From the NCBI RefSeq assembly GCF_000308295.2, contig NZ_HG326652.1, positions 801,420-865,419 of the forward strand: 64,000 bases of DNA. Direction: 5' to 3'. The notes beneath the pieces were generated by a model, which had not been told where the DNA came from, did no database searches, and worked only from the letters and a program-made list of their open reading frames with translations. The position numbers were made by a program, and so were the translations under genes. The DNA is from Afipia birgiae 34632 (lineage in GTDB: Bacteria; Pseudomonadota; Alphaproteobacteria; Rhizobiales; Xanthobacteraceae). Of the stretch, positions 42,058-60,878 are shown piece by piece (position 1 is the stretch's first letter; each line of letters starts with the position of its first letter).

Positions 42058-42726
42058 CTACGCTTCGAGCACAGCTACGATTTCAAGCGTCCGCGGATTC
42101 ACGACCACGATTTCACCGTTGACGAGGAAGAACTCATATCCGCGCCAATCGGGATAGATCGTGACGACTTCAGCGGGAAGCGGGTGGAAGCCCACTGTTC
42201 GTGGGACTCGCGTACCGACCGAGATCGAGAAGTTGATATTCGTCGCTGGCTTGATGTTCTGCTTGGTGATCGACGTGCGGATGGTGGTGCGCTGCTCTGC
42301 TGACAGCTTCGCGCCGGCACCAGCCTGACCTGTGGTTGCTCCGGCCTTGCCTTCGCCGGTATTCTTCTGGTCGGCCTTCATGCCGTCCTTCGACCTGTCC
42401 ATGTTGGTCTCGGACGCAGCTTTGCCGCCTGACTTTTGATCGCGGGTGTCTGCGGCTTTCGGCTTCATGCCATCCTTGGTATTGTCCTGAGCGCGTTGGG
42501 CGTCGCGGCCCTCGCGCGGCATCTGAGCCTGATCGCCCTTCATGCCGCCGGCGGGTGCATCGCCATGCTTCATTGGCGCGGCTCTTTCCGCAGGCGCGCC
42601 TGCTGACGGTGCGGCCTGCGATGCAGCAGGGGCGTTCGGTGCGTTGCCCGGCGTCTGTGCCGAGACAAATCCCGCACTGCCGATCAGGGCAGCCGTAGCA
42701 ACGCCAATCAAAAACTTGTTCCTCAT
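42058..42726 (-). CDS. DUF1236-family exported protein
   Basis: A 222-residue secreted protein. The signal peptide is MRNKFLIGVATAALIGSAGF ending at VSAQ; ATG 42726 has GAGGAGG upstream. The middle (about 25-145) is an Ala/Gly/Lys/Gln/Asp-rich, low-complexity, repeatedly MKxxD/KDGMK-containing region. The C-terminal 75 residues are the DUF1236 domain with LSAEQRTTIRTSIT, HPLPAEVVTIYPDWRGYEFF and NPRTLEIVAVLEA. DUF1236 proteins are common in Bradyrhizobium and of unknown role, probably periplasmic. Confidence 0.85.
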   Translation of the reverse strand: MRNKFLIGVATAALIGSAGFVSAQTPGNAPNAPAASQAAPSAGAPAERAAPMKHGDAPAGGMKGDQAQMPREGRDAQRAQDNTKDGMKPKAADTRDQKSGGKAASETNMDRSKDGMKADQKNTGEGKAGATTGQAGAGAKLSAEQRTTIRTSITKQNIKPATNINFSISVGTRVPRTVGFHPLPAEVVTIYPDWRGYEFFLVNGEIVVVNPRTLEIVAVLEA

Positions 42727-42857
42727 AATATCCTCCTCGTTGTCTGCCCGGGTCTTCAACGAGAAGCGATCTGCTCTGTTCCGCTCTAAAATGAGATGTT
42801 GCGTGAACAAACTGTTCATGTGGAACATTCCCTGCAAAGTCGCGGATTATTTGCAGA

Positions 42858-44111
42858 TCAGAAAGGGTCTGGCGTTCGGGCGCGATACGTATGGGCATGC
42901 GCTGCCGCGAACATCGCCCACATAATTCCCAGCATCATCCAGAAGTGACGCCAATGGTCGACGTCGATGATGAAGGCTTCGCTGACGGTGCCAAAGAAGG
43001 CGGCGAAGATCGCGAGATAAGCCCGCTGCCATGGCACCCGGACGAAGACCAGCTTGAACCCCATGATCATGGTAATAAACACGAGCGCCGGGAAGCAGAT
43101 ACCTGCGATCCAGCCGCCTGACATGAACGCGTTCAGGAATGAGTTATGGGTGTCCTCGGGAAAGTAATTCGAGAATTGAAGGGGGCCGATCCCGAACGGC
43201 AGTTCGAGCGCCATCTGGAATCCGAGCGCGTGGCGGCCGAAACGGCCGAAGCGACCGCCGTCGTAGCTTTGATTAAAGCTGGCCCGTTCCTTGAAAAGAC
43301 CGCCGATGGACTCGAACGACAGGAGCGCAACAAGGAGCAAAGTCGCGCAAATCGTTGCTGCGATAGCCACTGTCACGATGCGCGTCCTTTGCGCCGGCGA
43401 AGGTGTCGTGAGGTACATCAGGACAAGCATGAAGGCCGAACAGGCCACCAACTGGCCCCAGGACGCGCGCGAGAAGGCGAGCAGCACGGCAAGGCTGACA
43501 ATTCCCAACGCGATCGCACTCCGGAATGATTTGGCGAAAGGCTGGGTGACGACGCTCTGCAGCAGGAACATTGCTGGCAGGATCAAATAGGCACCCAGTA
43601 CGTTGGGGTCCTTGAACGTTCCTCGCGCGCGGCTGTACAGCGTGAAGAGATCGTAACCGCCGCTCCCTGCGAGATGGAAGTATCCGGCGATGGCGGCGAG
43701 GGACGCGATCAGGGCCCCGAAGATCAGTCCGCGGCGAAGGGATTCAAGCCTTTCGGCGGTGTCCTCGCACAGAACCATCGCGAAAAACAGCGCGGTGACG
43801 GCCATGTACCAGGATGTGAGAATCCAGTTCAGCACCTCTTTCTTGTCAATCAAATAAATGGAACAGATCGTGTAACCGATGTTCAGCAGGAATAGCAGGA
43901 TTAGAAGCGGGATAAAGACGGGACGCATGCGCAGGCCGGTGGCGAAGAAGAAGATCACCGAGGCAAGTGTTACGATCTCATAGGGACTTGGTTCGATGAA
44001 TACGATCGCTCCACCGGCACCAACGGCCCACATCAACGCCCGCTGGATCGCCGCGATACCGGGCGGCGTCGCAGTCGCGGGAAGGGCGTAGTCTGTCGCG
44101 GCTAGAGCCAT
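42858..44111 (-). CDS. O-antigen ligase/polymerase-family membrane protein
   Basis: A 417-residue protein with about eleven membrane helices. The long periplasmic loop typical of Wzy/WaaL-type proteins is near the C-terminus, and ARGTFKDPNVLGAYLILPAM is the family motif; SRASWGQL and FSNYFPEDTHNSFLNAFMSG are further conserved segments. With the initiating transferase, GT4, Wza and chain-length protein nearby it most likely polymerises the exopolysaccharide repeat (ExoQ-like role). It is the last gene of a minus-strand unit 47660 to 42858. Confidence 0.88.
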   Translation of the reverse strand: MALAATDYALPATATPPGIAAIQRALMWAVGAGGAIVFIEPSPYEIVTLASVIFFFATGLRMRPVFIPLLILLFLLNIGYTICSIYLIDKKEVLNWILTSWYMAVTALFFAMVLCEDTAERLESLRRGLIFGALIASLAAIAGYFHLAGSGGYDLFTLYSRARGTFKDPNVLGAYLILPAMFLLQSVVTQPFAKSFRSAIALGIVSLAVLLAFSRASWGQLVACSAFMLVLMYLTTPSPAQRTRIVTVAIAATICATLLLVALLSFESIGGLFKERASFNQSYDGGRFGRFGRHALGFQMALELPFGIGPLQFSNYFPEDTHNSFLNAFMSGGWIAGICFPALVFITMIMGFKLVFVRVPWQRAYLAIFAAFFGTVSEAFIIDVDHWRHFWMMLGIMWAMFAAAHAHTYRARTPDPF

Positions 44112-44203: not shown

Positions 44204-45754
44204 TCAATATGCGTTCTCCCCCTTGATCAGGGCGAACGGTGTCTTGAAGAGGATGTAGAGGTCGAACAGGACCGACCAGTTCTCGATATAATAAAGGTCG
44301 AACTCGACACGCTTCTGGATCTTCTCGTCGGTGTCCACTTCACCGCGCCAGCCGTTGATCTGCGCCCATCCCGTGATTCCGGGTTTAACGCGATGGCGTG
44401 CGAAGTAGCCATCGACAGCCTCGTCGAACAGGCGGCTCTGCAGCTTGCCTTGCACCGCATGCGGGCGCGGGCCGACCAGCGAGAGGTTCCCCTTGAAAAC
44501 AACGTTGAAAAGCTGCGGGAGCTCGTCAAGGCTGGTCTTGCGGATGAAGCGGCCGACGCGGGTGACGCGCTTGTCACCCCTGGTGACGACCTTGGAAGCC
44601 AGCGGATCCGCCTGATCGTGAAACAGCGAGCGAAACTTGTAAACGTCAATACGCTCGTTGTTGAAGCCGTAGCGCTTTTGCAGGAAGAGTACCGGACCGG
44701 GACTGTCGAGTTTGATCGCCAGTGCGACAAGCGCCATGATCGGCGCAAGCAGGATGAGGATGATCGCGCCGACGACGCGGTCGAATGCCGACTTCAAGAC
44801 CATGTCCCAGTCGGTGATCGGTTGCTCGAACACATCGAGGGTCGGGACCTCGCCGAGATACGAATAGGAACGCGGACGAAAGCGCAGCTTGTTTGTGTGT
44901 GCTGACAGCCGGATATCGACGGGCAACACCCACAGCTTCTTCAGCATTTCCAGAATGCGGGTTTCAGCCGAAATGGGCAGGGCGAACAGCACCAGGTCGA
45001 TCCGCGTGCGGCGTGCGAATTCAACAATGTCGTCGATTTTTCCGAGCTTCGGCTGACCGGCGCAGGTTTCCAGCGCGCGGGAATCGTTACGGTCATCGAA
45101 CACGCCGAGGATCTGAATATCGGAATCGTCCTGCGCATTGAGCGCACGGATCAGATTTTCACCATTCTGGTCGGAGCCGACAATGATCGTCCGCCGGTCG
45201 AGCCGGCCCTCGCGTGCCCAGCGGCGAACCAGCGAACGCAGCACCAGCCGTTCAGCAAACAGCGCGGACAAGCCGGCAAAGAAAAACGCCGAGAGCCAGA
45301 CACGGGAGATCGTGCCGCCCAGTTTCGCGAAAAAAGATGCGCCGATGAACAGCAGGAAAACGAATGCCCATGACGATGCCATGCGCGTCATCTGGCGAAG
45401 CTGGCCGCGGAAAACTTGTACGTCGTAGATTTCAGCGGCCTGGAAGCTGATCACCGCACACGCGGCGACGCCGAACACAGCTGCTGTGTACTGCCAGGAA
45501 AAACTGTCGCCGGGCATCACGTACCACAGATACAATCCGAGCCCGACTGCACTCAACAGCACGAAATCCAGGATTCTGACGACACCGCTGATGACGACGG
45601 TCGAGTAGGCCTTGCTGACCTTTTCGTTGGTTACCGCGAGCGCGGCTGGCGATAGTCTTTTGCGGCGTTCCTGCCGAGGCGCGCCATCGGCTGCGCTCAT
45701 TGTGGCTGCTCCCGGGGCAGCGTTCATCATCGTTCGGACGTCGATCGGTTCCAC
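44204..45754 (-). CDS. Undecaprenyl-phosphate glucose phosphotransferase (initiating sugar transferase)
   Basis: Membrane enzyme that transfers a hexose-1-phosphate to undecaprenyl phosphate, starting exopolysaccharide assembly. The 516-residue WcaJ/ExoY-type protein has about four N-terminal helices, a CoA-binding-like Rossmann region ([18 protein letters not shown]), a fifth helix ([20 protein letters not shown]) and the catalytic domain with [30 protein letters not shown] and GPRPHAV. The start is GTG 45754; ATG codons at about 45730 are alternatives. The catalytic Asp-Glu pair DELPQ is intact. Confidence 0.93.
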
Positions 45755-45867: not shown

Positions 45868-47001
45868 TTAACGCGCGTTGAACGCCTCGCGATACCCGTT
45901 GAGCACGCCATCGACCATCGCCTTCTGCGAGAAGTGGACGAAGATGCGTTCGCGCAGGTTCCGGGCGCGTTCGCGGGTCGCGTCCATGTCTGCCAGCGCG
46001 CTCTCGATCGCGTCCGCCATCGCACCGATGCTGTTAGCCACGAAGAGTCCGCTGGTGTGCGGTCCAAGGATTTCCGGAATGCCGCCGACACTGGCGGCGA
46101 TCATCGGGATACCGGCGGCGGCCGCCTCGATGACAACGTATGGCATCGAGTCGCCCCGCGAGGGGACGACCAGCAGCTTGCCCTTGGAGAAGCCAAAGCG
46201 GGCCCTCACGTGGCCGATGAACCGCACGGCGTCACCGATGTTGAGGCTGCTGACGAGCGCCTTGAGGGTTTCGGTCTCCTCGCCATCGCCGGCGAGTGTC
46301 AGCGTGATGGGTTTCCCGTCCGCCCGAAGCCGGGCAACGGCCTGAATCAGCAGGTCTGCGCCCTTGATCTCGCGGAATTCGCCAACATAGATGAGATCTG
46401 TCGCGTCCTCCGAAACCGGAACCGGATCGAATTCGAACGCGGTCACGCCGTTGAAGACGCAGCGGATCATGCCGGCAGGTTTGCCGATAATGCGCTGATA
46501 GGTGTCGCGCGCGAAGGCGCTTTCAAACAGAAACAGCTCGGTCCGGTTCATCAGCGCGCGTTCCATCCGCGTATAGACGGCGCCTTTGAGTGTTCCCGGT
46601 GGGTAGTGGAGGGACCCGCCGTGCGGGGTGTAAACCCGGATCGCCTTCTTCGATTTACCTTTCATGCGCACGAAGGCACCGGCTTTCGCGCCATGTCCGT
46701 GCAGGACATCCAGCTTGAGTGACCGGGCCAGGCGAAGGAAATGCAGGGACGTCACGCTGTCGATGGGGTGTGGCTCGCGGCGGATCGCGAGACGATACAC
46801 GCCGAGCTTGAGCTTGGGGCTGATCTCTTTCAGCGCGGCATCCGCTCGCCCGCCACCCGTGAGGCTGTCAGCCAGTATTCCGACCGAATGCCCGCGCTCG
46901 GCTTGTCCGACGGCAAGATCCAGAATGTGACGGAAAATTCCACCCACGGGCGCGCGGACAGCGTGCAGAATGCGCAGCGGGGAGTCGGGTGTTTCGGGCA
47001 T
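45868..47001 (-). CDS. Glycosyltransferase family 4
   Basis: A 377-residue GT-B-fold retaining glycosyltransferase. The N-terminal domain has GGIFRHILDLAVGQAERGHS; the C-terminal nucleotide-sugar site has YVGEFREIKGADLLIQAVA, LAGDGEETETLKAL and PSRGDSMPYVVIEAAAAGIP, with the EX7E pair in DSMPYVVIEAAAAG (first Glu replaced by Asp). It is the only elongating glycosyltransferase in the polysaccharide locus. It starts two bases before the wza-like stop, on the same strand. Confidence 0.9.
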   Translation of the reverse strand: MPETPDSPLRILHAVRAPVGGIFRHILDLAVGQAERGHSVGILADSLTGGGRADAALKEISPKLKLGVYRLAIRREPHPIDSVTSLHFLRLARSLKLDVLHGHGAKAGAFVRMKGKSKKAIRVYTPHGGSLHYPPGTLKGAVYTRMERALMNRTELFLFESAFARDTYQRIIGKPAGMIRCVFNGVTAFEFDPVPVSEDATDLIYVGEFREIKGADLLIQAVARLRADGKPITLTLAGDGEETETLKALVSSLNIGDAVRFIGHVRARFGFSKGKLLVVPSRGDSMPYVVIEAAAAGIPMIAASVGGIPEILGPHTSGLFVANSIGAMADAIESALADMDATRERARNLRERIFVHFSQKAMVDGVLNGYREAFNAR

Positions 47002-47003
47002 CG

Positions 47004-47660
47004 TCAGAACCAGCGTTCGGCGACAACGACCGTGTCCCCGGGTTTCAGGAGCGTACCAGGCGGTACAACAGCCTGAGCGGTACCAGCTTCGCCTATCCGG
47101 GTTAATTTGATGCTGCTTCGCAAAGCGCGCGGCGTGAAGCCGCCCGCAATGGCGACTGCGCTCTCAACCGTCATGTTCGGTACATACGGATACTGGCCGG
47201 GTGCGGCAACTTCGCCCAAAATGAAGAATGGCCGGTAGGTTTCGACCTCCGCTGCGACGTGAGGTTCGCGGAGATAGCCGTTCTTCAGGCGGGACGTGAT
47301 CGTGGCCGCCAGTCCGTTTGGTGTCAGACCCCGCGCCCGCACAGCGCCGATCAGCGGCATCGTGATCGAGCCGCCTGCATCGACGGCATAAGTGTTGGTA
47401 AGGCCTTCCTGACCATACACGACGATGCGCAGCCGATCGCCGGCGTCGAGGCGATAAGGTTCGTCATGGGCGGCGTAGCTGTAGACAGGCGGTGCCGGCG
47501 TTGTCGCCACGCTTACGGCGCGCACTGGCTGGACCGGTCCATAGGCAATCGCATCGAGACTGCCGTTATCAATAACCGCCACCGGCGCAGTCGTCCGCAT
47601 ACAGCCCGACACCACGAGCGCGAGGAGGAGCCAAGTGAGGCGCGCGCGGCTGCGCTGCAT
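47004..47660 (-). CDS. Polysaccharide export lipoprotein (Wza/OPX family)
   Basis: Outer-membrane polysaccharide export component. The 218-residue protein has a signal peptide with a lipobox (LLLALVVSGC, Cys about residue 20), the Poly_export domain DEPYRLDAGDRLRIVVYGQE, and a SLBB repeat (FILGEVAAPGQYPYVPNMTV, ESAVAIAGGFTPRA). It is short compared with E. coli Wza (379), as in the gamma/alpha class without the C-terminal barrel. It heads the minus-strand unit and is divergent from the chain-length gene at 47857. Confidence 0.92.
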   Translation of the reverse strand: MQRSRARLTWLLLALVVSGCMRTTAPVAVIDNGSLDAIAYGPVQPVRAVSVATTPAPPVYSYAAHDEPYRLDAGDRLRIVVYGQEGLTNTYAVDAGGSITMPLIGAVRARGLTPNGLAATITSRLKNGYLREPHVAAEVETYRPFFILGEVAAPGQYPYVPNMTVESAVAIAGGFTPRALRSSIKLTRIGEAGTAQAVVPPGTLLKPGDTVVVAERWF

Positions 47661-47856: not shown

Positions 47857-50019
47857 ATGCGTTTTTCGTTCTGGCGTGACTGGATGAGCAAGATGCCGTT
47901 CCGGGCCACGGCTGATGTCGCGCCGACTCCTGAGCCAGTCATTGCTGCGCCTGCGCCTGTGACGCTCGCCGCCAGCCCCGAACTTGGCGACATCGATCTC
48001 CGTGCGATCTGGGAAACGCTGGTCCGCAAGCGGATGTGGATCATTGTGCCCACCGCGCTCGCGCTCGCGCTGTCACTGCTTGCCGTCAACATGATTACGC
48101 CACGCTACAAGTCGGAGGCGCGCATCCTGATCGATGGACGGGAGAACGTCTTTCTGCGGCCGAATGGCGAGCGCTCCGAAGAGCGCGGCAGCCTCGATGC
48201 CGAAGCCGTGACCAGTCAGGTTCAGCTGTTGCTGTCGCGCGATCTTGCTCGCGAAGTGATCAAGGTGAACAAACTCGCCGAACTGCCAGAATTTGATCCG
48301 GTGCTGCGCGGCATTTCGCCGCTCAAGACGCTTCTTGGTCTGTTCGGCCTCGGCCGCGATCCTTTCAGGATGACGCCCGAAGAGCGTGTGCTCGAAGCGT
48401 ATTACGACCGGCTGGCGGCCTTCGCTATCGACAAGTCGCGCGTGATGGTGATCGAATTCCAGTCGCGCGATCCGGAACTCGCGGCGCGTGTCACGAACTC
48501 CATTGCCGACGGCTATCTTGTGCTTCAGCAGGCGGCGCGGCAGAATCAGGCGAAGGCTGCCTCGCAATGGCTGCTCGTCGAGATCGAGAGCCTGCGCAAG
48601 AAGGTCGCGGATGCCGAGGCGCGGGTCGAGGAATTCCGCTCCAAATCCAATCTCTTCGTCGGCACCAACAACACCACGCTGTCGAACCAGCAACTCGGCG
48701 AGTTGAACACCCAGCTCAACAATGCGCGCGCGCTGAAGTCCGACGCTGAATCGAAGTCCCGTCTGATCCGGGAAATGCTCCAGAGCGGCAAGCCGATCGA
48801 AGCATCCGAAGTTCTCAATTCCGAGCTGGTTCGCCGTCTGTCGGAACAGCGCGTGACGCTTCGCGCGCAACTGGCCGAGCAATCGTCGACGCTGCTCGGT
48901 GGGCATCCGCGCATCAAGGAGCTGAAAGCGCAGATTCTGGATATCGACCGCCAGATCCGGGAGGAGGCGAACAAGATTTCCCGATCGTTGGAGAACGATG
49001 CCCGGATCGCGAGCGCGCGGGCGGATGGACTTAATGGAAGCCTCGACCAGTTGAAGCGCCAGGCGACGTCCACCAATGGCCAGGATGTCCAGTTGCGGGC
49101 CTATGAGCGTGAAGCGAAGGCGCAGCGCGATCTGCTGGAATCTTATCTTGCGAAGTATCGCGAGGCGACAACCCGCGAGAACATTGACGCAGCTCCGGCC
49201 GACGGCAGGATCATTTCTCGGGCTATCGTGTCGAATACACCCGCTTTCCCGAAAAAGCTTCCGACCGTGCTGATCGCCACCATGGCGATGCTGATGTTGA
49301 GCGCCGGTTATATCACCACGGGTGAGTTGCTGCGCATGACGGTGCCGCGTCCGGCTGCAACTGTACAGATCCCGATGGCGCCCTTACGCGACACGCATCC
49401 GCAAATGCCGGCGGGCATTATCGAAATCGAACGTCTGGCCGCGATGTTGCGTCAGGGTGGCGGGACAACTCGAAAGATCACTGTTATCGGCGCCCACCAG
49501 GATGAAAGCGTAACGCTGATAGCGCTGACGCTTGCACGGCTGCTGTCGCGTGGGTCGAAAGTCGTGCTGGTCGATCTTGCGATGGCGTCTCCGACGCTAG
49601 CCGCGGTGTCAACCGATCCGGCGTCGCCCGGATTGACTGAATTGATGCAGGGGTCAGCCTCGTTCAGCGAGATCATCACCAAGGATCGTCTGTCCGGTGT
49701 TCATCTGGTGGGAGCAGGGCAGGAACCAAGCCAGCGTCAATTGCTGCAGCTGCCGAGGATCAACCTAGCGGTCGATGCGCTCTCGCGGGCATATGATTAT
49801 GTCGTGCTGGATGCTGGCACTGCGACAGACTTGCCTGCAAGCGTCATCGCTGCACAGGCTCATGCTGTCATCATCCCCGATCCGGAAATCACAGCGTCCG
49901 CGCGTGAGGTGATGAAAAGCCAACTGCTCGCGTCAGGCTTTACCGGTGTGACCATCCTCGATACGCCCTTGAGGGCGATGGATCTCGGTGCGCCGGGCGA
50001 ACGGGTCGCTGCGGCCTGA
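47857..50019 (+). CDS. Polysaccharide chain-length / BY-kinase-like protein with degenerate ATPase
   Basis: A 720-residue GumC/ExoP-type co-polymerase. A Wzz domain with first helix (WIIVPTALALALSLLAVNMI) near residue 62, a long periplasmic coiled coil (about 230-420), a GNVR-like region (TTRENIDAAPADGRIIS) and second helix near 480, then a cytoplasmic BY-kinase-like domain. There the Walker A reads VIGAHQDESVTLIAL at about 543-557, with no Gly-Lys-Ser/Thr; Walker A' (VVLVDLA) and B (YVVLDAG) are weak, and no Tyr cluster ends the protein. Kinase activity is unlikely; role probably scaffold/length control. Confidence 0.88.
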   Translation: MRFSFWRDWMSKMPFRATADVAPTPEPVIAAPAPVTLAASPELGDIDLRAIWETLVRKRMWIIVPTALALALSLLAVNMITPRYKSEARILIDGRENVFLRPNGERSEERGSLDAEAVTSQVQLLLSRDLAREVIKVNKLAELPEFDPVLRGISPLKTLLGLFGLGRDPFRMTPEERVLEAYYDRLAAFAIDKSRVMVIEFQSRDPELAARVTNSIADGYLVLQQAARQNQAKAASQWLLVEIESLRKKVADAEARVEEFRSKSNLFVGTNNTTLSNQQLGELNTQLNNARALKSDAESKSRLIREMLQSGKPIEASEVLNSELVRRLSEQRVTLRAQLAEQSSTLLGGHPRIKELKAQILDIDRQIREEANKISRSLENDARIASARADGLNGSLDQLKRQATSTNGQDVQLRAYEREAKAQRDLLESYLAKYREATTRENIDAAPADGRIISRAIVSNTPAFPKKLPTVLIATMAMLMLSAGYITTGELLRMTVPRPAATVQIPMAPLRDTHPQMPAGIIEIERLAAMLRQGGGTTRKITVIGAHQDESVTLIALTLARLLSRGSKVVLVDLAMASPTLAAVSTDPASPGLTELMQGSASFSEIITKDRLSGVHLVGAGQEPSQRQLLQLPRINLAVDALSRAYDYVVLDAGTATDLPASVIAAQAHAVIIPDPEITASAREVMKSQLLASGFTGVTILDTPLRAMDLGAPGERVAAA

Positions 50020-50040: not shown

Positions 50041-51237
50041 TTAGCGCGAGAGGGCGTTGCGCAGCAGCTGCGCCATTTGCATCAGCGCGGGATTGTGTTT
50101 CACGAGTCGTTTGGCGTGGGTGAGGGACGACATGCCAAGCGCCGCGAACTTGCCTCGCGCGGTCAACGGAATAAAGGCGTCCGTTAGCGGTTCGTCGTCC
50201 TTGCAGAACGTCATCTTGTACTCGTCCGACCCGACGCCGAAATCGAGCGAACTGTAGCCGAGATCGCCGAAGTGATCGATCATGTAGCGCAGCAGGATCA
50301 GGCCGGGGCTGTAGCGCGCATTTTCCGAGATCGTATACGTGTTGAACATGGTCGAAAACCGCTCGCCGTCCGCCACGCAGGCGAAGATCGAAATCAGTTC
50401 TGCGTCGCATTCCAGTGCGTGAAGTTCGATAGCGCGTCCGCTGCTCGGAAGTTTCGCCAAACATGCGTCACGCACGAACGCCTTGGTGGCCGGATCGGAA
50501 AAGATGTCCGGCAATTTCGAAAGCGCCATCCGCTGCGGCTTGATGACAAAGAAGCTGTCCAGCAGACGATTGATGTCATCGTCGGTCGTTGCGACGAAGT
50601 AGCGATAGCCCGGAAGGGCCTGGAGTTTGCGCTCCTTGTTGCGCAGTCGCCGCCGCGTCGATGTGCTGACGCGCTCTTCCGGCTTGCACCCCGGAACCAT
50701 GGTCATCATGGGGCAGGGATTGGTCGACGGTTGCGCGGCTAGCGATGCCAGCGGGTTCGCGACGTTTCGCCATTGTTTTGGCTGCTGCGCGAAGGCCAGC
50801 ACGTCGACGCCATCCGGCTGCATCCGAATGGCGGTGATCAGCGCGTCGAGTTCGGTTGAAGAGATTGTTTCCGCGAAGTCGCGGCGCCACAACGCCATGT
50901 TGAATGTGGGATGCTTGCCGCCCATGAAGCGGGCCACCTTTGCGCCGTTCTCACGGCTGCTGACAAGCGGAAGCAACACGAGGGGCCGGCTATTCACATC
51001 GTATGCGACGACGATGAGGGGCACGGCGCCTTCGTGTTTGCCAATGCTCTGCTGCCAGGCATCGAGAAGCTCGAAGCGCTGATAGGGGGTATGGAGAAAA
51101 TCATCCCCGTCAAGAGCTCGCCAGTTCACTTTGGCCGCAGCCATGTCGCGAATGATGTCGACGCGCGCGATGCGGCTTGTCACTGAATACGACGGTGAGC
51201 TTGTGTCGGAGCCGTGAAGTTCTGCAGCCATGGCCAT
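50041..51237 (-). CDS. CelD/BcsL-type GNAT acyltransferase
   Basis: A 398-residue protein of the CelD (GNAT_6) acetyltransferase group found in exopolysaccharide and cellulose loci, thought to acylate the polymer or its precursors. Landmarks are HTPYQRFELLDAWQQSIG, SRPLVLLPLVSS, the TSTRRRLRNKERKL basic patch and the acyl-CoA region ENARYSPGLILLRYMIDHFG, LDFGVGSDEYKMTFC. It is convergent with the co-polymerase gene and divergent from the deacetylase-like gene, so it belongs to the same polysaccharide locus. Confidence 0.86.
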   Translation of the reverse strand: MAMAAELHGSDTSSPSYSVTSRIARVDIIRDMAAAKVNWRALDGDDFLHTPYQRFELLDAWQQSIGKHEGAVPLIVVAYDVNSRPLVLLPLVSSRENGAKVARFMGGKHPTFNMALWRRDFAETISSTELDALITAIRMQPDGVDVLAFAQQPKQWRNVANPLASLAAQPSTNPCPMMTMVPGCKPEERVSTSTRRRLRNKERKLQALPGYRYFVATTDDDINRLLDSFFVIKPQRMALSKLPDIFSDPATKAFVRDACLAKLPSSGRAIELHALECDAELISIFACVADGERFSTMFNTYTISENARYSPGLILLRYMIDHFGDLGYSSLDFGVGSDEYKMTFCKDDEPLTDAFIPLTARGKFAALGMSSLTHAKRLVKHNPALMQMAQLLRNALSR

Positions 51238-51360: not shown

Positions 51361-52425
51361 GTGTTGTTTCGGAGGAGTGTACTGGCAGATATGGGGCTGG
51401 AGTTGGCCTATTTCAGCGGTTTGTCACATATCCTCGAACGAAGAACTGGCGGTGCCGGAGCCATCCTCAAATTCGAACACGTCCGCCCGAAGCGCGCCGA
51501 TCCTTTTCAGCCGTTGCGGTCGCGCGACGTTACCCCCGAATTTCTCGATCGCGCGATCTCAGTACTCAGGCGTTGGAATCTTGATTTCCTGTCCATCGAC
51601 GAAGCCGCTGAACGATCCCGGCACGCTGCCGTTGCGCGTCGCTTCGTGTGCCTGACATTCGATGGCGGTCATCGCGATTTTATGACCTTCGCCTATCCGG
51701 TGCTATCGCGTCACCGCGTACCGTTCGCACTGTATGTTCCTACCGGCTTCATCGACGGTATCGGCAAGGCGTGGTGGCTCGCGCTCGAACAGGTGATCGC
51801 GCGCAACGCCCGGATCGGGCTGGTGATGAATCGCATCGAACGGCATTTCTTCGCCGCCACCCTCGCGGAGAAGTATCAGCTTTACGAGGTGCTGCACGCC
51901 TGGATGATGACCCTGTCCCCGGACGATGTCGCGATTGCAATCGGTGATCTGTGCGGCCGTTACGGGGTGGACATCAATGCCGCCTCGCGCGACGCGGCGA
52001 TAAACTGGCAGGACCTCGCCAAGCTGGCGCGCGATCCGCAAGCGACTATCGGAAGCGCGACCGTCAACTATCCAAACCTCGCACGGACAAAGGGCACAAT
52101 CGCGCTCCGGGAAATGACCATGGGCCGGACGGTGCTGGAAACCGCGCTTGACGGGCCCTGTCGGCATTTTGCCTATCCGTTTGGCGGACAGGATTGCTTC
52201 GGTCCCCGCGAAATGATGCTGGCGCGGGAGGCGGGGTTTACCAGCGCGGTATCCAGAGCACCGGGTGTCGTCCGCTCCGATGGCCAGTCGGACATGATGG
52301 CGCTGCCGCGGATCGTGTGGGATGGACGGCGGACCTCACTCCGGGCGCTGCGTGTGGTTCTTTCGGGCCTCACCAGCAGGCCCCCCAAAACGCAAACGCC
52401 GGAACTCGCCGCGAACTATGGCTGA
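51361..52425 (+). CDS. NodB-fold polysaccharide deacetylase homologue without metal ligands
   Basis: A 354-residue protein of the carbohydrate esterase 4 fold. Motif 1, normally TFDDG, reads TFDGG (Asp101 kept, metal Asp replaced by Gly102). Motif 2, normally H(S/T)xxH, reads ATVNY (Ala233 and Tyr237 in place of both His). HFAYPFGGQD and LPRIVWDG are preserved, so the fold looks intact. All three expected metal ligands are absent, so hydrolysis is unlikely; perhaps a sugar-binding or regulatory pseudoenzyme. GTG 51361 is chosen (AGAAGGA upstream); ATG 51313 is another start. Confidence 0.85.
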   Translation: MLFRRSVLADMGLELAYFSGLSHILERRTGGAGAILKFEHVRPKRADPFQPLRSRDVTPEFLDRAISVLRRWNLDFLSIDEAAERSRHAAVARRFVCLTFDGGHRDFMTFAYPVLSRHRVPFALYVPTGFIDGIGKAWWLALEQVIARNARIGLVMNRIERHFFAATLAEKYQLYEVLHAWMMTLSPDDVAIAIGDLCGRYGVDINAASRDAAINWQDLAKLARDPQATIGSATVNYPNLARTKGTIALREMTMGRTVLETALDGPCRHFAYPFGGQDCFGPREMMLAREAGFTSAVSRAPGVVRSDGQSDMMALPRIVWDGRRTSLRALRVVLSGLTSRPPKTQTPELAANYG

Positions 52426-52727: not shown

Positions 52728-53828
52728 ATGACGTCTATCGCAACTGACACAGAGAGCAGGGCCGCCGGCATGCGGAGCGTCCGCGCGTGGCTGATCATTG
52801 TCGCAGCTCTTGTTGTCTGCACACTCATGGTCGGTGGTGCGACGCGGCTGACGGAATCCGGCCTCTCGATTGTCGAGTGGAAGCCGGTCACTGGTACCAT
52901 TCCGCCGCTGACGGATGCTGAATGGAGCAAACAGTTCGAGGCCTACAAGACTATTCCGCAGTATCGGGAGATGAACCACGGAATGAGTCTTGCCGAATTC
53001 AAGACCATCTTCTGGTGGGAGTGGGCTCACCGGCTGTTGGGGCGGCTGATCGGCGCGGTGTTCCTGCTGCCATTTCTCTGGTTCCTGTGGCGCGGATTCC
53101 TGTCGTCTGAACTCAAGCGCAGATTGTGGACCATCTTCGTGCTTGGCGGCGCGCAGGGCGCGGTGGGCTGGTGGATGGTGGCGTCGGGTCTCTCCGGACG
53201 TGTCTCCGTGTCGCAGTATCGGCTGGCCATACATTTCATGCTGGCGGTGCTGATCCTGTCGGCAATCATCTGGACGTTGCGCCGGTTGCAAGTTCGTCCG
53301 CCGTCAGTTGCTCCCATGCGGGTGAAAGTCACCGGCAGGATTTTGCTGGCGCTGCTGTTCCTGCAGTTCTATTTCGGCGCGCTTGTTGCCGGGCTGCGCG
53401 CAGGCCGTGTGTTCAATACATGGCCGCTGATTGACGGTGCGTTTATCCCGTCGGCCGCGCGATTGTTCTTCGAGCAGCCATGGTGGCGGAACTTCTTCGA
53501 CAACACGCTGACGGTTCAATTCACTCATCGCATGATCGCCTATGCACTCGTTGCTCTGGCAATCGTCCACGCGATCGACGCGGTTCGGTCCCGCACAGGT
53601 CCCGCTATTATCTCGAGCGCGCTCTGGATCATGGCGACCATGATCTTTCAAGCCGTCGTTGGCATCCTGACGCTGCTTAATCAGGTTCCGATCGATCTTG
53701 GGTTGGCCCACCAGGCCGTCGCGATCGTGGTTCTCACGCTGGCGCTGGTTCACGTCGAGCGGCTGGGCGGGGCGCTGCCGGACAGGACGCCAGCCAAGCT
53801 TCGCCTTGTCACCGGCGATGGCGGCTGA
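52728..53828 (+). CDS. ctaA: Haem A synthase (Cox15/CtaA)
   Basis: Hydroxylates haem O to haem A for aa3-type cytochrome oxidase; inner membrane. The 366-residue, eight-helix protein has the four expected His sites: [12 protein letters not shown] with [40 protein letters not shown] and [12 protein letters not shown]. The N-terminal [16 protein letters not shown] is the family signature. The stop overlaps an Irr-like box that serves the next gene. Confidence 0.94.
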
Positions 53829-59618: not shown

Positions 59619-60878
59619 ATGCCAGCTGGCACACATTTGTCTTTGGACATTTCGACGCTCTATCTCGTGGCAACGCTGGCGGCGGCATCGCTTGGCGTGA
59701 TGCTGCTGTTCTTCTGGCGTCAGGAGAAGATCGCGGCGCTCGGCTGGTGGGGCGCTGCCTATATCCTTGGCGCGGCATCGGTCGCGCTGTGGACGGTGGG
59801 CGGCGCTGAACTTGGCTGGGAACTCTCGCTTGCGGTTAACGCCGTGGGCTTTGTCGCCTGTGGCCTCGTATGGGACGCGGCGCGGGCCTTCCACGGCCGT
59901 CCTGCCAGCTGGATCGGCGTGATCGCCGGGCCGGCACTCTGGATTGCGGCCGTCGTGTTGCTTGATCCGATCGATCCGGAAATCCGGATGATGCTCGGCG
60001 CGGGGATTGTCGCCGTTTATGCCGCGCTGACGGCGGGCGAGTTGTGGCGCGAGCGGCGCAAGAGCCTGCGCGCACGCTGGCCCGCGATCGTCGTCCCGAT
60101 GATGCACGGCGTCGTTCTGATGTTGCCGATCGTTCTGGGCGATATGTTCCGGTCCGGCGGCGCAACAAGCATGGGCCAGGTCTGGGTCGCGGCGTTTGCC
60201 GCCGAACTGGTGCTCTATGCCGTCGGCACGGTGTTCATCATCTTCATGCTGGTGTCAGAGCGCGCGGTCAGCGTTCACAAGACCGCGGCATCGGTCGATC
60301 CGCTTACAGGTCTGCTGAACCGGCGCGGCTTCAGCGAAGCGACATCGCGCATGATCGAGCGCGAGGCCAAGGCGGGTCGTCCCGTCACTGTGATGATCTT
60401 CGATATCGATCACTTCAAGTCAGTCAACGACCGCTTCGGCCATGCCGCAGGCGATGACGTGCTACAGGTGTTCGCCAATGTCGTTGAGGCCTCCCTCCGG
60501 ATGACCGATCTCGTGGGCCGGGTCGGCGGTGAGGAATTCGCGGCGCTGCTGCCGTGTTCGATCGAGGAAGCGTTGCTTGCAGCGGAGCGGGTGCGCGAAG
60601 CTTTTGAGACGTCCGGCGTGGCGATCGATGATGCCCCGCTGGAAACCACAGTCAGCATCGGTGTCGCGGGCGGTCCGGCGAACACCGAACTCGAAGTGCT
60701 GATGGCGTCGGCCGATACCGCTCTCTATCAGGCCAAGCGCGGCGGACGTAATCGCGTGGAAGCCGCGATGGAGCAGCCGCTTTCGCTCGAGAATGCCCGC
60801 CGCAATCAGATCCAGAGCGGCTCGCCGCAGCCGGACAACGCAATCTCGAACCGCGCGCCGGCGGAAGCTCTCGCCTGA
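59619..60878 (+). CDS. Membrane diguanylate cyclase (GGDEF)
   Basis: Makes cyclic di-GMP. The 419-residue protein has six or seven N-terminal helices (about residues 12-220) with no known sensor domain, then a GGDEF domain: DPLTGLLNRRGFSE, FDIDHFKSVNDRFGHAAGDD and the active site GGEEF. The inhibitory site RMTD lies five residues before GGEEF, so product feedback is expected. A Ser/Asn-rich tail closes it. No EAL domain. It is a single gene after the ribosomal operon. Confidence 0.93.
   Translation: MPAGTHLSLDISTLYLVATLAAASLGVMLLFFWRQEKIAALGWWGAAYILGAASVALWTVGGAELGWELSLAVNAVGFVACGLVWDAARAFHGRPASWIGVIAGPALWIAAVVLLDPIDPEIRMMLGAGIVAVYAALTAGELWRERRKSLRARWPAIVVPMMHGVVLMLPIVLGDMFRSGGATSMGQVWVAAFAAELVLYAVGTVFIIFMLVSERAVSVHKTAASVDPLTGLLNRRGFSEATSRMIEREAKAGRPVTVMIFDIDHFKSVNDRFGHAAGDDVLQVFANVVEASLRMTDLVGRVGGEEFAALLPCSIEEALLAAERVREAFETSGVAIDDAPLETTVSIGVAGGPANTELEVLMASADTALYQAKRGGRNRVEAAMEQPLSLENARRNQIQSGSPQPDNAISNRAPAEALA

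Follow-up and report, generated by a model that had tools for sequence, protein, structure and literature searches.

The 64,000-nucleotide stretch of Afipia birgiae 34632 DNA analysed here (the window) carries a CE4 gene whose product, judging from its sequence, has very probably lost metal-dependent deacetylase activity while being maintained by selection. This pseudo-deacetylase gene, labelled P in what follows (51361-52425, + strand; 354 codons plus stop, first codon GTG), belongs to an orthologous clade that has lost the catalytic residues and is under purifying selection. Loss of the metal site and of the MT5 His goes back to the common ancestor of the dead copies sampled, and the gene has stayed under purifying selection ever since. 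An intact CE4 paralogue, labelled A, lies elsewhere in the same genome. The complete reading that we favor, with a probability of roughly 0.4, is that the dead, maintained protein would be a non-catalytic subunit that holds a glycan or a partner and tunes adhesin acetylation.

A first-pass annotation of this DNA had described an open frame of 354 codons in which TFDGG and ATVNY replace the CE4 motifs TFDDG and H(S/T)xxH. The frame is there, and the two motifs occupy residues 99-103 (MT1) and 233-237 (MT2), where aligned intact homologues read TFDDG-type and HTVxH-type, respectively. The metal Asp and both His said to be gone are indeed replaced by Gly102, Ala233, and Tyr237, and the later fold motifs HFAYPFGG and LPRIVWDG remain, with the core residues of both conserved. 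A further loss had been overlooked: the MT5 His of homologues (motif LxLHHV) is Glu39 in P, and PMC10967932 describes this His at the N terminus of NodB2 proteins, in VLMYH. A misalignment of MT2 was ruled out, as there is no gap at this place and the flanking TIG and TV are conserved. Family membership is supported by the PF01522 (NodB) profile, which matches P with 39.7 bits (cut-off, 23.1), the best stretch being residues 213-277. Of 14 close rows in the alignment, the window among them, 13 have GTG as the start codon at 51361 and one has TTG. No signal peptide was seen in P when the sequence was judged by eye.

Orthologues were gathered from two surveys. The first comprised 61 related genomes, with matches in 53 and a P orthologue at 52% identity or more in 21. 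The second comprised 198 genomes of the family, with matches at E values up to 1e-30 listed in at least 149 and, among the matches listed, 47 genomes with a P orthologue at 51% identity or more. Their union amounts to at least 57 P genomes, and all 57 rows were read; the survey rows left unfetched, near 39-42% identity, include those of G130, G181, G063, G173, G083, G119, and G090. The dead pattern proved to be conserved across this orthologous clade, a check that the first-pass annotation had proposed, and the Asp-His-His triad occurs in 0/57 orthologues: the Asp and the first His are absent from all 57 and the second His from 56. At codon 102 (51664-51666, +), in place of the MT1 metal Asp, there are 56 Gly and 1 Cys; at codon 233 (52057-52059, +), in place of the first MT2 metal His, 46 Ala, 10 Ser, and 1 Cys; and at codon 237 (52069-52071, +), in place of the second, 51 Tyr, 2 Ser, 2 Gly, 1 Asn, and 1 His. 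One member of the dead clade (locus L191, genome G162) reads ATVHH, keeping the second-ligand His with the first His and the Asp gone. Codon 39 (51475-51477, +), in place of the MT5 catalytic His, encodes His in none of the 57 (Glu 40, Gln 7, Asp 4, Ala 3, Arg 2, Thr 1). Among 55 non-P rows, Asp102 is present in 55/55, His233 and His237 in 54/54 with a letter, and His39 in 53/53; His39 is likewise found in 19 of the 20 rows L193-L212 and in 51/51 paralogue rows with a letter.

The open frame spans window residues 3 to 337 in all 57 genomes. One stop falls inside the matched stretch in 5 of 47 P rows (G144, G068, G096, G101, and G200), yet in each the open frame reaches at least from window residue 1 to 337. 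Since the pattern is fixed or nearly fixed in the 57 surveyed genomes, a sequencing error or a single decayed copy was rejected. Named loci, the best 80 of 150, show Gly 78, Cys 1, and Ser 1 at position 102, Ala 77 and Ser 3 at 233, and Tyr 79 and Ser 1 at 237; they were picked partly by the dead-site pattern and overlap the surveyed genomes and so are not an unbiased test. These loci are labelled Afipia, Bradyrhizobium, Tardiphaga, Rhodopseudomonas, or unclassified MAGs, and all named orthologues at 72-90% identity to the window protein are labelled Afipia.

Part of the active site persists. The MT1 catalytic Asp at codon 101 (51661-51663, +) is retained in 57/57 surveyed P, and codon 317 (52309-52311, +) encodes Arg in every one of 137 P rows, a set with many near-duplicates. 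Arg317 is the likely partner of Asp101, going by what PMC10967932 and PMC4505593 say of NodB2 folds. An alternative metal site in a model had been named as something that would count against a dead enzyme; at the level of sequence, no substitute ligand set is conserved in the 57 P, as Asp101 stays and position 39 varies. Position 40 was considered as a substitute ligand and rejected (Arg in 36/57, His in 21/57). The invariance of Asp101 and Arg317 would suit a metal-independent hydrolase or transferase working through these two residues, for which 3CL6 offers a precedent, being described in PMC10967932 as a non-metal-dependent NodB enzyme that lacks both MT1 Asp. However, 3CL6 is said to keep the MT4 Asp and the MT5 His, the latter being lost in P with position 39 variable, and an unsystematic look noticed no conserved residues that might serve as a new acid/base or nucleophile set. 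Such chemistry is therefore very unlikely in our judgment. We see just as little prospect of a new activity in which the remodelled site, where Asp101-Arg317 persists and Gly102, Ala233, Tyr237, and Trp320 hardly vary, would act without metal on the adhesin of Bradyrhizobium and its relatives while another locus supplies the metal-dependent hydrolase.

The surroundings of P point to a surface polysaccharide. Its divergent neighbor, 123 bp away, is a GNAT acyltransferase gene (PF13480 profile match; 50041-51237, -), and the conserved right-hand border of the locus is ctaA, for heme A synthase (profile matches; 52728-53828, +). The GNAT gene lies upstream of P on the opposite strand in 79/80 named loci and ctaA downstream in 78/80, the exceptions (L085 and L110) ending soon after P. 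Some stop-to-stop frames of P are long (e.g., at L139 and L150); they are probably not gene fusions, as the same-strand sequence upstream is GNAT antisense. Profile matches identify, further to the left, a Wza-type polysaccharide export protein (uppC-like; 47004-47660, -), a GT4 glycosyltransferase (45868-47001, -), an initiating undecaprenyl-phosphate glycosyltransferase (uppE/hfsE-like; 44204-45754, -; TIGR03023, 497.7 bits; cut-off, 410.75), and a Wzy/O-antigen ligase family protein (42858-44111, -). In the upp (unipolar polysaccharide) cluster of Bradyrhizobium ottawaense, as described in PMC12727192, a Wza-type exporter is encoded by uppC and a WbaP-type initiating transferase by uppE. 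Both functions are encoded near P and fit that account, the match being one of description only; hence, the neighborhood is probably an upp-type adhesin locus, a name taken from the description of the upp cluster.

Other genes of the region deserve mention. A Wzz/Wzc-like chain-length protein without Walker A (47857-50019, +; profile matches and alignment) has a weakly recognizable kinase-like C-terminal part. Across 86 aligned rows (14 from loci L193-L212 and 72, counting the window, from dead-CE4 loci), the Walker A motif G-x4-GK[ST] never occurs, although a single row carries GK[ST] in this region; Tyr occurs once at most among the last 40 residues. It is a second pseudoenzyme-like protein of the P locus. 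A protein of 242 aa (42170-42898, -) has no Pfam or NCBIfam match; it is 42-53% identical in the Afipia loci where it was detected, and none was reported for Bradyrhizobium loci at the cut-off used. A GGDEF diguanylate cyclase gene (59619-60878, +) lies about 7 kb from P, with ribosomal protein genes on one side and an AI-2E-type transporter gene on the other.

In other genera of the family, the best match to P is 39-46% identical. Sixty such rows were fetched; 57 keep H39, N52, D101, D102, H233, and H237, and 58 have Asp-His-His. Partial losses outside the dead clade were seen at L206 (R39), L288 (Y237), and L210 (G102 and F237). Among 20 other-genus rows with flanks, upp-side genes were found in 17, ctaA in 17, and both in 14, several misses being contig ends. 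Since these intact CE4 genes are flanked likewise by upp-side genes or ctaA, the dead and intact proteins occupy the same position (GNAT / CE4 / ctaA). In an unrooted tree with the six key columns blanked, a branch supported at 100/100 separates 26 dead rows from all others, and a second unrooted tree, with 39 dead rows, likewise recovered them as one group. The 39-row tree dropped near-duplicates, L022/L023 (the same genes as L211/L212), L046, L064, and L076; for the 26-row tree, 13 of these dead rows were removed as well, along with ten long order-wide rows, and the 40 rows L274-L313 are in neither. L206 and L210 adjoin the dead clade (100/96) on long branches, and the group with the A paralogues stands apart (100/96). 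The genomes of L206 and L210 carry an intact second copy (L264 and L269), and second matches exist also in G061, G128, and G107, where the locus copy is intact. Because the dead copies form one clade, their association with a second copy represents largely one event rather than many independent ones.

The coding sequence of P has evolved under constraint. Ratios of dN/dS were obtained by simple counting, with some dS values above 1 and up to 2.9. For P they range from 0.080 to 0.146 in 10 matched pairs and from 0.085 to 0.176 in 21 pairs, and for A, in the same 10 pairs, from 0.106 to 0.266, P being lower in nine and equal within 0.001 in the tenth. Neighboring genes, with seven pairs each, gave 0.071-0.158 (GNAT), 0.029-0.061 (uppE-like), 0.056-0.083 (wzz), and 0.050-0.131 (ctaA). 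Thus, the ratio near 1 that had been proposed as a sign of decay is not what P shows (0.08-0.18). Furthermore, Gly102 is kept through four synonymous codons (GGC, GGT, GGA, and GGG), and Ala233 likewise through four. In 33 thinned rows, where a lower entropy percentile means stronger conservation, position 102 stands at 11, 237 at 28, 233 at 34, and 39 at 59, and positions 101, 273, 275, and 317 are invariant. Positions 102 and 237 are conserved in a way that freely drifting sites are not, so their replacement residues appear to matter, for structure or binding; position 39 is freer. A neutral relic was rejected on the dN/dS and codon evidence.

The distribution of P shows that it can be dispensed with. 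Among 29 genomes of the window's genus, the GNAT gene is present in 29 and the uppE-like gene in 28, and nine genomes (G004, G007, G008, G010, G012, G016, G017, G020, and G021; loci L219-L227) are without P. In each of these, GNAT and ctaA are adjacent on a single contig, with no significant trace of P in the interval, and the locus, GNAT, and an intact A are kept. Since all three persist there without P, P is useful yet not essential to the locus. On the A tree, the presence and absence of P require four changes, three of them forced by well-supported branches. These changes, and the clean absences, are what would be expected if P were a relic on its way out, its function lost once A took over deacetylation and the gene now undergoing slow deletion. 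This scenario seems to us most improbable, as it has to contend with the low dN/dS, the frames open throughout the 57 genomes, the conserved replacement residues, and the presence of P in records named Afipia, Bradyrhizobium, Tardiphaga, and Rhodopseudomonas.

Paralogue A of the window's genome (G000, C2:918875-920071) is 39% identical to P over the match and keeps all key residues. It lies on another contig than P, and no other polysaccharide gene was found among the 10 ORFs scanned near it, whose products include OmpA-like, oxidoreductase, and histidine kinase proteins. In the family survey, among the matches listed, 46 of 47 P genomes have an A-type gene (E up to 1e-140); the exception, G209, 89% complete and in about 950 contigs, shows the dead copy only. 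All A rows read have the key residues; they comprise 33 rows (30 distinct genes) of one alignment and, with the rows of two others, represent 22 of the 46 genomes. This near-constant company, the divergent arrangement of P and GNAT in all but one named locus, and the report of HfsK as a c-di-GMP effector in Caulobacter (PMC5362036) raise the possibility that P is a regulatory pseudoenzyme acting on protein, forming a heteromer with A or the GNAT protein to switch its activity or bring it to the pole. We regard this as possible but somewhat doubtful, since A and GNAT persist without P in the nine genus genomes and A sits on its separate contig beside unrelated genes.

The AlphaFold2 model of P (38 sequences; mean pLDDT, 81.5; pTM, 0.82) is nearest, among solved folds, to PplD (Z, 25.4; rmsd, 2.6 over 224 residues), IcaB (24.7), BA0330/BC0361 (24.0), 6GO1 (23.2), and PgaB (23.0). 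The matches to PplD, IcaB, and PgaB extend over 219-236 residues, and position 39 (MT5) precedes MT1, as in the NodB2 topology. According to PMC8449245 and PMC5362036, the deacetylase HfsH of Caulobacter crescentus acts on the holdfast polymer, the GNAT protein HfsK may acylate the exposed amines, and the holdfast is weaker on loss of either. The position of P beside a GNAT gene, its lack of hydrolytic machinery, and this analogy suggest that P most likely holds an acetylated repeat or a partner protein. As a non-catalytic glycan-holding or partner subunit, P would be cytoplasmic. Retaining the fold, the groove-wall motif AYPxG, and Asp101-Arg317, it could still hold the N-acetylated, perhaps lipid-linked, adhesin repeat uncut, presenting the sugar to A and the neighboring GNAT protein or shielding it from them. 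The degree of acetylation, and hence the stickiness of the polymer, may then be set by P. Whereas the losses, their conservation, the synteny, and the intact paralogue are observed directly, we infer the glycan holding, the choice of partners, the location, and the effect on adhesion. The repurposed pseudoenzyme proposed in the first-pass annotation is thus borne out as a dead, maintained protein by the 57 orthologues and their dN/dS, the new function staying at the level of inference.

These results amount to a natural experiment: one conserved locus holds an adhesin-modifying enzyme type in some genera, whereas its descendant in others is catalytically dead and accompanied by an intact paralogue at a separate site. 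The general question of what purpose a dead carbohydrate esterase serves thereby becomes testable in root-attaching bacteria that are tractable in the laboratory. A "polysaccharide deacetylase" label given from the fold alone can mislead on activity in these genomes.

In our searches of open-licence PMC papers, we found no prior description of P and none of a deacetylase in upp clusters. The closest parallel in setting is HfsH, a CE4 protein of Caulobacterales, which belongs to a polar-adhesin polysaccharide locus and whose pathway in C. crescentus also includes a GNAT protein, HfsK (PMC8449245, PMC5362036). HfsH is reported with all five CE4 motifs, and its Asp mutant as null-like (PMC8449245), whereas the metal site is gone in P; the two are likened by description. 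With respect to GNAT, the analogy does not hold everywhere, as deletion of hfsK in Hirschia baltica is reported to have no effect on biofilm or holdfast (PMC8449245). PplD (6DQ3), IcaB (4WCJ), and PgaB (3VUS, 4F9D, 4F9J) share with P the fold, the motif order, and the N-terminal MT5 (as laid out in PMC10967932). In contrast to P, which has lost D102, H233, H237, and H39, they are deposited as deacetylases, PgaB with iron or nickel. A itself is of the same family as P but keeps the key residues and lies apart from polysaccharide genes within the 10 ORFs scanned.

Nearer in biochemical state are BA0330 and BA0331 of Bacillus anthracis, NodB2 proteins that, according to PMC4505593, are without deacetylase activity and stabilize the cell wall, the fold of BA0330 matching the P model with a Z of 24.0. 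Unlike P, they keep Asp-His-His, BA0330 binds zinc, and both are lipoproteins (PMC4505593). The CE4 pseudoenzymes BA0150 (4M1B), EcCDA (2VYO), and BA3943 (6HM9, by its PDB title) resemble P in having a NodB fold whose metal or catalytic motifs are damaged, as presented in PMC10967932 and PMC6115787. On the other hand, these are NodB1 proteins from other settings, while P is NodB2, clade-wide, located in an adhesin-type locus, and matched by an intact positional counterpart in other genera. CE4 pseudoenzymes are thus already known, from Bacillus and elsewhere, and P is a clade-wide variant of them in an adhesin-type locus.
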